A DNA stretch of 64,000 nt from Pontixanthobacter aestiaquae (GTDB lineage: Bacteria; Pseudomonadota; Alphaproteobacteria; Sphingomonadales; Sphingomonadaceae): the NCBI RefSeq assembly GCF_009827455.1, contig NZ_WTYZ01000001.1, positions 1,311,001-1,375,000 on the forward strand, given 5' to 3'. This document shows positions 30,452 to 56,298 of the stretch, one piece after another. Position 1 is the stretch's first letter. The number at the start of each line of letters is the position of its first letter. Below the pieces are notes generated by a model. The model was not told the origin of the DNA. It saw only the letters and a list, made by a program, of their open reading frames with translations, and searched no databases. A program made the translations under genes and the position numbers.

Positions 30452-31228
30452 GTGACTGCAAGAAAGCTCGCATCTCTTGCCATTGCCGTAGCTTTTCTGA
30501 TCGGCATGGCCGTTTGGAATTTTGCACGTGTGCCAGCTCCAATTGAGGATGGTCAACCAAAACAACGGCTTGGTCTGATGACCTCTCTGCCAATCTATTG
30601 GGGTGAAGGTGAAGGATTCGGCGATATGCTGGCGGATGACCAGCATCAGCATTGGGTAAAAGAACAGCTGGAACGGCGTTTTGAGCTGATCCCGCTGGAT
30701 ATTCTCTCTGCATCTGGTTCGCTCGAGCCGAATAGTGATCTAGCCGGTTTGGAATTCCTGATGCTGGCGCAGCCAAGCGCTCTTGCACCAGCCGATTTTG
30801 TTGCGCTCGACAATTGGGTCAAAGGCGGCGGCATGCTGCTGCTTTTTGCAGACCCGATGCTGACCGAGCATTCTGAATTCGGCCTCGGTGATCGCCGGCG
30901 TCCGCAGGACATCGCTTTGCTCGGACCGATCCTGACCCGCTGGGGGTTGCGACAATTCTATGATCAGGATCAGCCTGATGCGCTGCGCTTCATTTCCTAT
31001 GACAGCATTGCGATACCGGTCCATAAAACCGGTCAGATCGAGATTGTGCCCACCGATGCAGTGACCTGCGAGCTGGTGTCTGAAAGCGTCATCGCCTCAT
31101 GCGTGATCGGGCAGGGCACAGCTCTCATTGTATCCGATGCGGCGGTGCTGGAGCATGAAGCCGATCCAGCAATTTCTAGCGAAGCGCTGGACAAGTTGCT
31201 ACGAAGCGCGTTCAAACCAGCCCGATGA
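30452..31228 (+). CDS. GldG/ABC-transporter auxiliary-like protein
   Basis: 258 residues, GTG start. An N-terminal membrane anchor (about 5-22) is followed by a Rossmann-like extracytoplasmic domain with RLGLMTSLPIYWGEG and LDNWVKGGGMLLLFADPMLT, features of the GldG-like auxiliary domain. These usually accompany an ABC transporter, but none is adjacent. Its role is unknown. It is the last gene before the mraZ leader. Confidence 0.6.
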   Translation: MTARKLASLAIAVAFLIGMAVWNFARVPAPIEDGQPKQRLGLMTSLPIYWGEGEGFGDMLADDQHQHWVKEQLERRFELIPLDILSASGSLEPNSDLAGLEFLMLAQPSALAPADFVALDNWVKGGGMLLLFADPMLTEHSEFGLGDRRRPQDIALLGPILTRWGLRQFYDQDQPDALRFISYDSIAIPVHKTGQIEIVPTDAVTCELVSESVIASCVIGQGTALIVSDAAVLEHEADPAISSEALDKLLRSAFKPAR

Positions 31229-31618
31229 ATGGCCACGATGTGGCCTTACGATCGATCCGGGGATTTCACGGGTGAGACACTCTGTATCGGAGTCGAGGCT
31301 CCCTTTTTTGGGGATTTGACGGGGAATATCCGGGATATCGTGGTTTTTTCAGGAGTAAATGGGGTGATAATGGGAGTGACGTTAAGTATATTATCTGTTT
31401 AATAACAGAACTTTAATGAGTAATCCCAAGATATCCCTTAATTTTCCCTAGCATCCCGTGATTTCGCGGGTTATCACCACTTTCCATCAGACATTGAGTC
31501 TTCTGCTGCGTTTCATCTCCATGAAGCGAGCTGCCCGTGCCTATGCGCGGGCGGAAGCGGGGAAGATGTGTCTGGGGAATGGGTTTGAAACACGGTTTTG
31601 GGGGAAGAAGTGGCGGAA
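31229..31618 (+). promoter_or_regulatory. 390-base mraZ leader with phased MraZ-type operator boxes
   Basis: This gap holds the dcw cluster promoter region. Seven G-tracts (31310-31374) share GG at 31312, 31322, 31332, 31342, 31352, 31362 and 31372, an exact 10-bp period. Four C-tracts (31425-31457) share CC at 31426, 31436, 31446 and 31456, the same period on the other strand. MraZ is known to bind TGGG repeats spaced ten bases apart before its own gene, so this is the likely operator. An imperfect copy of the first two boxes (GGGGATTTCACGGG) is at 31259-31272. TCTGTT-N4-AACAGA lies at 31394-31409. No gene is credible here. Confidence 0.75.
31287..31309 (+). terminator. Weak possible terminator after the GldG-like gene
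   Basis: GGAG-tcgagg-CTCC makes a four-pair stem followed by C and six T (31304-31309). The stem is short, so function is doubtful. It lies between the last gene and the G-tract array and would separate the two transcription units. Confidence 0.3.
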
Positions 31619-32128
31619 ATGCGTCACAGTTACAGCGGACAGGCCTTGACCCTTCTGGGGGACAAGGACCGTTTCGTTATACCTCCCGAATTTCGCAAGA
31701 TCGTCCGCGCCTCGAGCGATGATAAACGCATCCTTTGCCTTGCCAAGCATGACCGTTGGGACTGCCTCGTCGGTTTTGGCTTGTCCCGCCAGGAAGAGCT
31801 TGAAGAGCAGCTGGACCGCGAAGAGGACGCTGCGCTGCGTCTCGGCCGTGACTATGACCGCGAGCTACGTTCCAACCTGTTGTTCGGTTTCGAACGCATT
31901 CCGTTCGACGATAGCGGCCGCTTCACGATGCCCGACTACCTCCGCAGCGATGGCCAGATTGACGACACGCTGTTCTTCCGCGGCGCAGGACAGTCTTTCA
32001 CGGTATGGAACCCTGCTGTTCTCGAGCAGCAGGGCAGTGAGTGGAATCCGGTAAAATCCAGCTGCGCCGGTCTGGTCAAAGAAGCCGAAGCCAAGGGTAA
32101 GGGCCAGAACAGGGGGAAGCGCAAATGA
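31619..32128 (+). CDS. mraZ: Transcriptional regulator MraZ
   Basis: 169 residues from ATG 31619, ten bases after GGAAGAAG; GTG 31610 and TTG 31598 are also in frame. Two SpoVT/AbrB-type halves are visible, each with its DxxxRFxxP motif: [13 protein letters not shown] and [13 protein letters not shown]. MraZ is a ring-forming DNA-binding protein that represses its own dcw cluster. A basic tail ([11 protein letters not shown]) follows. Its stop overlaps the rsmH start by four bases. Confidence 0.9.
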
Positions 32129-33090
32129 CCCCCGCTTCTGCTAGTGCACCGCATATCCCTGTGCTGCTGAAAGAAGTTATCGCAGCGCTCGCTCCACAAG
32201 AGGGCGACATCATTATTGATGCCACCTTCGGCGCGGGCGGATATACGCGCGCGTTGCTCGACGCCGGTGCGACGGTTCATGCGTTCGACCGTGATCCCGA
32301 TGCAATCGCCAGCGGATCGAAGTGGCCCGAAGCGCAGGAACGGCCTCCGCGTCTGGTGCTGCACGCACGCCGTTTTTCCGCAATGGTCGCAGCGATGGCC
32401 GAAGCTGGCGTGACGCGTATCGACGGTATCACAATGGATATCGGTGTATCCTCGATGCAGCTCGATCGGGCTGAGCGCGGGTTCGCGTTTTCGTCCGACG
32501 GACCGCTCGATATGCGTATGTCTCAAGATGGCGAAAGCGCGGCGGATTTCCTGAACGCTGCTGAAGAGAGCACCATCGCCGATGTACTTTACCAATATGG
32601 CGAGGAGCGTCAGTCGCGCCGCGTGGCCCGCGCAATCGTAGCCGCGCGTCCGCTGGCGACGACCGGCGATCTGGCGCGCGTGGTGCGTAAAGCCCTCGGC
32701 TACCGCGCCGACGCCCAATCGAAGCGGGCTCCCAAAGATCCCGCAACGCGCAGCTTCCAGGCGGTTCGTATCCATGTGAATGCCGAACTGGAAGAATTGA
32801 AAGAAGGCCTCGAAGCTGCCGAGCAATTGTTGGGTGAAGGCGGGCGGCTGGCCGTAGTAAGCTTCCACAGTCTCGAAGATCGGATCGTCAAACGGTATCT
32901 GAAAGATGCATCGGGCAGTACTGGCGGTTCGCGCTATTTGCCCGAGATCGAGCAGGCGCCTGCGATTTACAGAGAAATCTCCAAAGCGATCAAAGCGGGC
33001 GATGCAGAGGTCAATGATAACCCGCGCGCTCGTTCGGCGGTGCTGCGGCATGCAATTCGCACTGACGCTCCAGCGAGAGAAGCAGCGTGA
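32125..33090 (+). CDS. rsmH: 16S rRNA (cytosine-1402-N4)-methyltransferase RsmH
   Basis: 321 residues. SAM site [15 protein letters not shown], motif [18 protein letters not shown] and the C-terminal [11 protein letters not shown] and [10 protein letters not shown] motifs are all present. It methylates C1402 in the ribosomal P-site region. Second gene of the dcw cluster; coupled to mraZ by ATGA and to ftsL by a one-to-four-base overlap. Confidence 0.96.
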
Positions 33091-55113: not shown

Positions 55114-56298
55114 ATGTTCGCGACGAACAAATCTAAAATCCGCCTTGTATCGGCGGTAATCGGCTTAACAATGCTGGCTGGCTGTGTGACACCGCCGCCT
55201 CCGCCACCTCCACCACCGCCGCCTCCGCCACCTCCACCGGTTGTTAAAGTGATACCGCCGCGTCCGGTGCCACCAGGAAGCGCGGCACTCGGCATGTATA
55301 TCCCGCCGCGCGGCAGCGACGGTTTGCGCCGGACTGTTAATTACGGACTGACAAAGCCGCAAACGCTGTGGAATTTGCGTTCTGCGCTCAACGTTGCCGC
55401 GCTCAATTGCCTTGATCCGCAATATGCTTCAATCCTGCCAGCTTACCGTACTTTGTTGGAACGGCACCGGAACAAGCTGCGCCGTACTAGTGACTCGATC
55501 CTTGCGCAGTATCGTGAGGACTACGGCAGATCCTATCGTGCGGAATATGATGGCTATATGACGCAGGTATATAATTACTACGCGCTACCGCCAGCAAAGG
55601 GACAGTTCTGTCGAACAGCTACGCAGATAGCCAACGACTCGCTAGCGGTGGAAGTCGGTCAACTGGAGCTGTTTGCGAGCATCAATTTGCCCCGTATCGA
55701 GCAGGTGTTCGACAATTTTTATTCATCATATGAAAAGTATCAAATTGATGTGACCGAATGGGACGCCGAATATGCGCCCAAGCCTGTCCCCGTTGTCGCG
55801 AGCAGCGTGGGCCAACTCGTTCCGGCGCAGGATGTTGACCAAGCAACCGGGATGGGTGCAACCCAGACAATGGGCCCATCGCCAGTCGGCCCGTCCACCG
55901 CGCCGGATGCGACGATTTACACGGTCGATGTTCCGCCTTCTGCTTCGACCGCATCGGCCATCACGCCAGCGCCGGCCACGTCGCCGCCCGCTGGTACAGT
56001 TGGCACGATGGCGACACCGAATATCGCCTATCCCGCAGTCAGCTCGGTCGAGCCGAGTGCTGCCGATCCGTCGATCACTCTGCCATCACCAAGCGAACCC
56101 GTTGCGATTTTGGCACCGGATAGCGCGGGTATAACGCCCGGCTTCACGCTGTCGCAGGATCCCGCGAGCACCGATGTGACAGTGCCTGCTCCGGCGCCTT
56201 CGACCCAACCGGTCTTTGTGAGCAATCCTGTTGTTCAGCCAACACCTGACGAAGAGGAATCGGGTGGTGGCGATGATGTCGGTAAAGGTATCGAGTGA
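55114..56298 (+). CDS. Lipoprotein with 16-residue polyproline tract
   Basis: 394 residues. Lipobox LAGC near residue 23 predicts lipidation at Cys. Directly after it come VTP and a run of 16 prolines, then a helical domain (about 55-230) with LDPQYASILPAYRTLLERH and a low-complexity Pro/Ser/Thr/Ala tail. No family recognised. The polyproline run would need EF-P for translation and could act as a stiff spacer from the membrane. Confidence 0.7.
   Translation: MFATNKSKIRLVSAVIGLTMLAGCVTPPPPPPPPPPPPPPPPVVKVIPPRPVPPGSAALGMYIPPRGSDGLRRTVNYGLTKPQTLWNLRSALNVAALNCLDPQYASILPAYRTLLERHRNKLRRTSDSILAQYREDYGRSYRAEYDGYMTQVYNYYALPPAKGQFCRTATQIANDSLAVEVGQLELFASINLPRIEQVFDNFYSSYEKYQIDVTEWDAEYAPKPVPVVASSVGQLVPAQDVDQATGMGATQTMGPSPVGPSTAPDATIYTVDVPPSASTASAITPAPATSPPAGTVGTMATPNIAYPAVSSVEPSAADPSITLPSPSEPVAILAPDSAGITPGFTLSQDPASTDVTVPAPAPSTQPVFVSNPVVQPTPDEEESGGGDDVGKGIE
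55192..55239 (+). repeat. Tandem 24-base duplication encoding polyproline
   Basis: Two adjacent 24-base units, 55192-55215 and 55216-55239, differ only in their last base (A or G). Each encodes eight prolines, so the run length in the lipoprotein came from a direct duplication and may vary by slippage. Confidence 0.85.

Follow-up and report, generated by a model that had tools for sequence, protein, structure and literature searches.

The mraZ leader and its G-tracts

Within the window (the whole 64,000-nucleotide stretch of DNA that we analysed), a divergent mraZ gene follows an intergenic region that carries G-tracts on both strands and a structured RNA element. The plus-strand gene preceding this region matches ABC_transp_aux weakly (34.0 bits against a cut-off of 34.7). 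The gene order mraZ, rsmH, ftsI-like makes mraZ the first gene of the dcw cluster, a conserved operon for cell division. Its start is probably GTG 31610, nine bases 5' of ATG 31619, because GGGGG stands at 31600-31604 and relatives keep the same frame. The closest named relatives of the source genome are Pontixanthobacter aquaemixtae (MraZ 93% identical) and Pontixanthobacter sp. CEM42 (94%). The features are listed below, a gap being measured between the last G of a forward set and the first C of the reverse array.

31229-31609: intergenic region of 381 bp between the plus-strand gene and mraZ
31259..31272, plus strand: upstream pair of forward boxes, GGGGATTTCACGGG; gap of 153 bp to the reverse array
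31310..31334, plus strand: three strong forward boxes (sites 1-3; GGGG 31310-31313, GGGG 31321-31324, GGG 31332-31334); gap of 91 bp to the reverse array
31342..31353, plus strand: two weak sites, TGGT and AGGA (sites 4-5; GG 31342-31343, GG 31352-31353)
31361..31374, plus strand: weaker pair (sites 6-7; GGGG 31361-31364, GGG 31372-31374); gap of 51 bp; kept in the closest relative
31425..31457, minus strand: reverse array of four GGG boxes, seen as C-tracts from 31425, 31435, 31446 and 31455
31485..31576, plus strand: conserved structured RNA element of the mraZ leader, about 92 nt, with closing stem AGACA/TGTCT and two inner hairpins
31610..32128, plus strand: mraZ, divergent, from the probable GTG start
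32125..33090, plus strand: rsmH (mraW), the next dcw cluster gene after mraZ

MraZ is a widely conserved bacterial regulator. Parts of two accounts (PMC8475190, PMC7761207) describe it as an octameric ring that represses its own operon, binds repeats in E. coli, Burkholderia cenocepacia and Mycoplasma genitalium and represses the dcw operon in E. coli; the different role of MraZ in some mycoplasmas that they also describe counts against a fixed sign of regulation. The window protein scores below the cut-offs of Pfam PF02381 (21.8 bits against 23) and of the best NCBIfam model (44.9 bits against 162, E 9e-12). Its predicted model has the MraZ fold (pLDDT 90.1): at E of at most 0.001 it has 16 PDB matches, each an MraZ chain or the M. 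pneumoniae entry for MraZ (UPF0040), at 16-19% identity.

A sequence-only reading of the leader had described seven G-tracts at an exact 10-bp period as a set of MraZ boxes. GG occurs, as described, at 31312, 31322, 31332, 31342, 31352, 31362 and 31372, five tracts being GGG or longer and two GG, with mraZ encoded just downstream. The upstream pair at 31259-31272 and the four C-tracts of the reverse array come in addition to that description. The exact period holds for one chosen GG per tract but depends on that choice, because the tract edges stand 9-11 bp apart (11, 11, 10, 10, 9 and 11 bp by first G; 11, 10, 9, 10, 11 and 10 bp by last G). Dinucleotide shuffling of the 381-bp region gave at least seven phased GGs with period 10 on either strand in 0 of 5000 trials, and at any period from 9 to 12 in 1 of 2000. 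At periods 7-15, on either strand, the window has no further run of at least seven GGs and just one more of at least six, a set of six GGs at period 9 near 55193, on the minus strand.

The likeness to MraZ boxes stands in part. The tracts recur in direct orientation about every 10 bp, have GGG as their core and GGGA in common with MraZ boxes, and lie directly 5' of mraZ and the dcw cluster, where an MraZ-box operator would be expected; strict TGGG, however, is found at three of the seven (sites 1, 6 and 7 only). The seven do not form one unit, since the GGG tracts fall into a pair (31259-31272), a triple (31310-31334) and a second pair (31361-31374), and the GG sites are weak. Nor are they the array that is best conserved among relatives: that one is the minus-strand array at 31425-31457, outside 31310..31374, and an alignment of four genus members shows it to be far better kept than the forward set. 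What the family conserves is the phase relation of the forward sets to the minus-strand array, rather than the seven positions. A single seven-box MraZ array along one helix face would account for the common period and for the closest relative, which keeps all seven with a 1-bp shift. Yet two of its sites lack GGG, P. aquaemixtae does not keep the seven, the usual forward chain in the family has two boxes (109 of 140), and sites 4-7 (31342-31374) lie at the edge of the family's helical phase, at the centre of which boxes 1-3 and the upstream pair are found. We regard such an array as rather improbable.

The mraZ leader is the clear focus of box patterns in the genome. A strict two-box pattern, SGGGAWWNNNSGGGAWW, has one match in the 2.87-Mb genome, within 31310-31334, and its reversed control has 0. 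A looser three-box pattern has 4 genome matches, 3 of them in the mraZ leader (reversed control also 3), and across 8 genus genomes a looser two-box pattern gives 25 matches, 11 in mraZ leaders (controls 7). Further box sites may therefore exist elsewhere.

Opposed box sets and altered MraZ across relatives

We collected 94 mraZ leaders and then 59 more (tblastn match in 59 of 60, with none for L189), giving 153 family leaders. Among the 191 family genomes with a match, the stronger ones of those listed were taken, so that the most divergent MraZ proteins are under-represented. Ten loci (L031-L040), several of them genomes already represented by other loci, were left out of the counts. For comparison we took 30 loci each from the class and the order (of 61 and 98 genomes with matches).

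Across the first 94 leaders, spacings of 10 bp between last Gs were strongly enriched in two zones, on opposite strands. On the plus strand at -450 to -210 there were 133 against 10.0 expected, and on the minus strand at -250 to -130 there were 158 against 6.5 expected, and spacings of 20 and 30 stood out there as well. Closest to mraZ the count was 22 against 13.9 expected, and plus-strand G in a control zone at -700 to -460 had 17 against 11.8 expected. At least one 10-bp pair of neighbouring tracts was present on the plus strand in 81 of the 94 leaders and on the minus strand in 89. Forward and reverse sets have in common the core GGGA(A/T)(A/T), mostly preceded by C or G, and the bases between boxes differ somewhat between the two. 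In the full set, 127 of 153 leaders have a reverse array of at least three boxes, and in 87 of 153 a forward chain contains two or more GGGA boxes, whatever its gap. Counted by MraZ cluster (80% identity), a forward set at gaps of 60-220 bp occurs in 55 of 108.

The composition of these chains also bears on whether the G-rich strand might instead fold into a G-quadruplex. This has been reported for the Staphylococcus aureus mraZ promoter from spectroscopy and a reporter, with conserved G4 motifs claimed in other bacteria (as set out in part of PMC11796246). A quadruplex needs four tracts, whereas most forward chains have two (109 of 140, some leaders having several chains); the tracts of the two sets, moreover, lie on opposite strands at a fixed helical pitch, with A after the G-tract. 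We consider this folding extremely improbable as the basis of the pattern.

Beyond the family, minus-strand chains of at least three boxes, mostly ATGGGATATC-like, are present in 22 of 30 class and 11 of 30 order loci, a few of them resembling chance G-rich matches. Plus-strand chains of at least three boxes occur in 1 of 30 loci in each group. Upstream plus-strand GGGA pairs, sought only where the reverse array has at least three boxes (22 class and 11 order loci) and at gaps of 60-260 bp, were found in 1 of 22 and 0 of 11. The E. coli mraZ leader boxes GTGGGAAATT, GTGGGGCAAA and GTGGGAATAA lie on the plus strand, and the arrays of other Alphaproteobacteria, where found, on the minus strand, so that array orientation varies by lineage. 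This distribution makes the minus-strand array the probable ancestral MraZ operator of the Alphaproteobacteria, with the forward set appearing as largely a clade-level addition. The sequence GGGAGTCAATGGG, which contains a GANTC site, occurs in 6 of the 60 class and order loci (L105-L134, L196-L225).

The forward set co-occurs with an altered MraZ. Of the two DxxxR motifs, the window protein keeps the second (DDSGR) and has the first without its Asp (GDKDR), a residue (D11 in E. coli) lost in 62 of 108 family clusters. A forward set accompanies 47 of the 62 clusters that lost the Asp against 8 of the 46 that kept it (Fisher 1.7e-9), and, with 60% clusters, 13 of 20 against 7 of 34 (p 1.6e-3), tests that handle shared ancestry by clustering alone. 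We count the exceptions against the association: 15 of 62 altered-MraZ clusters without a forward set and 8 of 46 unaltered ones with it. The boxes differ as well: T precedes GGG in a mean share of 0.38 of the reverse boxes in MraZ lineages with the Asp and of 0.03 in those that lost it. Between forward and reverse sets, covariation of the base preceding GGG is weak (Spearman 0.28, p 0.03, 60 clusters), and reverse boxes also track GC content; both points we count against the operator reading given below.

Helical phase between forward and reverse sets

Forward and reverse sets are phase-locked in the family. Gaps cluster near 90, 101, 111, 122, 133, 144, 154, 164 and 174 bp, with a best period of 10.4-10.7 bp. 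R at 10.5 bp reaches 0.69 when the forward chain carries two GGGA boxes and the gap is 60-220 bp; pairing the forward set of one leader with the reverse array of another gave a mean R of 0.08 and a maximum of 0.27 in 2000 trials. Reduced to a single gap for each MraZ cluster at 60% identity (about 23 values), the data gave a median R of 0.66 (5-95% range 0.55-0.74), against a null whose 99.9% point is 0.52 and maximum 0.59 (20000 trials), and R is 0.53 over all 190 chains, chance pairs included. Little phase is seen relative to the start codon: R at 10.5 bp is 0.06-0.13 for its distance from the forward set, and R is at most 0.10-0.22 over periods of 9.5-11.6 for its distance from the reverse array. 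G-tracts in chains are phased (R 0.59, n=276) and isolated ones unphased (R 0.08, n=264). Two weaker signals were counted against the specificity of this pattern, namely a slight phase of upstream minus-strand C-tracts (R 0.16, n=288, naive p 6e-4) and a weak phase of GANTC sites with the reverse array (R 0.16, n=143).

Sister leaders allowed the phase to be followed across changes in gap length. Over 34 disjoint sister pairs, the gap deviates from whole turns by 1.0 bp on average, against 2.2 bp for the distance from reverse array to start and 2.6 for random, a result matched by 12 of 20000 null trials. In 19 of the 34 pairs the gaps differ by at most 3 bp and in 15 by 9-63 bp, most of them near whole turns, although differences of 14, 34 and 37 bp fit whole turns poorly. 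Inherited lengths contribute to the agreement between sister gaps. Because both sets repeat internally at 10 bp, the choice of end box can shift a gap by a whole 10-bp step; this adds to the sister differences and cannot create a common phase.

These comparisons weigh on an explanation in which DNA curvature directed by sequence, without specific binding, or an old spacing inherited without selection, produced the pattern. Ahead of the reverse array, A-rich and T-rich positions likewise recur about every 11 bp, and the 19 sister pairs with gaps within 3 bp fit inheritance. The GGGA motif, on the other hand, is strand-specific, isolated G-tracts carry no phase, and the phase is kept though the linkers between the sets are only 22-59% identical in 33 of the 34 sister pairs (80% in one). 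Curvature or inheritance is thus, in our estimate, very improbable.

Alternatively, a second regulator working together with MraZ might occupy the forward boxes. Two boxes are the usual size of a forward chain (109 of 140), against three to five in most reverse arrays; the inter-box bases, as noted, are not quite the same in the two sets; and a CenR ChIP signal without a CenR motif lies 5' of mraZ in Rhodobacter sphaeroides (part of PMC9275681). Against this, the GGGA core and the 10-bp pitch are common to both sets, the forward sets go with altered MraZ and they are phase-locked to the reverse array, leaving a second regulator unlikely in our judgement.

The leader RNA and a putative two-sided operator

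Between the reverse array and mraZ lies the structured RNA element. In a covariation set of 29 of 132 leaders, picked by their closing-stem sequence, 15 of 19 base pairs have changes on both sides, 14 of these 15 being in the inner hairpins, which stand outside the selection, and 0 of 500 shuffles reach any of five measures. At E of at most 0.01 the model built on it matched 49 of 66 further sources (the window copy being a member of the model) and 7 of 73 others, with 0 of these matches among the 14 class and order loci (of 60) included in the 73. All 8 genus genomes have a single copy of the element. An Rfam search of 31100-31900 gave no match at E up to 1, and the element may be a new RNA family or a counterpart of the R. 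sphaeroides small RNA UpsM. Its distance from the reverse array is identical in 13 of 17 sister pairs and differs by 9-10 bp in the other four.

Signals for transcription were sought in the same region. A sigma-70 promoter scan gave one match, at 31364-31392 between the two sets, which is a candidate promoter only because 0.5 matches are expected by chance; a TTATCA-like element at 31471-31476, at a near-fixed distance before the leader RNA, is another candidate. A terminator-like match for the upstream gene lies at 31289-31302 (one against 0.7 expected). The conservation profile uses a final 87 leaders, an earlier one anchored on one C-tract pattern having covered 52 of 94. GANTC, the site of the CcrM methylase, occurs 166 times in the forward zone of 103 leaders against 100-105 expected, about 1.6-fold over shuffles, and is the most enriched of 16 palindromic pentamers there, which suggests a link to cell-cycle methylation. 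In the window, GAGTC at 31290-31294 lies in the forward zone and another GANTC site, 31496-31500, in the leader RNA. Part of PMC8959179 lists Caulobacter mraZ mRNA, with a GGGG motif, as a putative direct target of the small RNA CcnA, in the light of which the G-rich mraZ leader of the window could be of interest.

We consider it likely, from the arrangement of boxes in these leaders, that the G-tracts upstream of mraZ are the upstream half of a two-sided mraZ/dcw operator, whose two sets MraZ would bridge in a loop or wrap. The minus-strand array of four GGGA-type boxes adjoining the mraZ leader would be the older operator, to which the clade would have added, about 8-17 helical turns upstream and facing the reverse array, box sets on the plus strand that are mostly pairs. 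MraZ rings would then bind both sets and bridge them, and the intervening DNA (about 90-175 bp) would bend into a loop or wrap, which may tighten mraZ autoregulation, presumably as repression. Bridging by MraZ is the simplest reading because the second, opposed set lies on the same helix face 8-17 turns away. We are evenly divided over the wider proposal that a bidirectional operator and an altered MraZ co-evolved in a clade of the Sphingomonadaceae (in the GTDB sense), the MraZ rings closing a loop or wrap beside a clade-specific structured leader. If so, opposed arrays would be kept in register over 8-17 turns and single or stacked MraZ rings would close the DNA between them, making MraZ an architectural, loop-closing ring and not a simple one-array repressor.

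An opposed, phase-locked box set offers a direct test of looping against simple occupancy, for which the natural gaps, stepping by whole turns from about 90 to 175 bp, already supply a panel. The link to the lost motif residue points to the part of MraZ involved. To judge by the titles of PDB entries, structures are only now beginning to show the use that a ring protein makes of repeated boxes. Two of these entries (PDB 9r4j and 9sz7), which have M. genitalium MraZ on its own promoter or on one with four boxes, are matched by our window MraZ model, with Foldseek E of about 4e-8 to 5e-5 at 16-19% identity against their chains. Four boxes are also what the reverse array has here; unlike the arrangement in the window, no opposed second set is named in the entry titles.

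The E. coli mraZ1p promoter likewise has direct GGGA-type boxes at a 10-bp pitch 5' of mraZ, but as a single plus-strand array adjoining the start codon, whereas here a minus-strand array is combined with an opposed upstream set and GGG is mostly preceded by C or G instead of T. The B. cenocepacia MraZ site has four repeats at a 10-bp pitch, on a fragment bound in gel shift; unlike the arrays here, it overlaps the transcription start, and the part of the account concerned with it mentions no opposed upstream set (PMC7761207). The dcw leader of R. sphaeroides with UpsM resembles the present one in being a long mraZ leader with a structured RNA (part of PMC5089854), and the leader RNA here, of about 92 nt and with a structure of its own, is set apart from UpsM by description, not sequence. 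Among titles and opening lines of abstracts, which took in few subscription papers, we found no opposed or phase-locked MraZ arrays in the literature. A parallel in geometry is with the looping repressors LacI, GalR and AraC, whose paired operators keep helical phase over distances of roughly 90-210 bp, and the two box sets here stand in such a phase. Unlike theirs, each operator of the putative loop here would be a repeat array for a ring-shaped protein.
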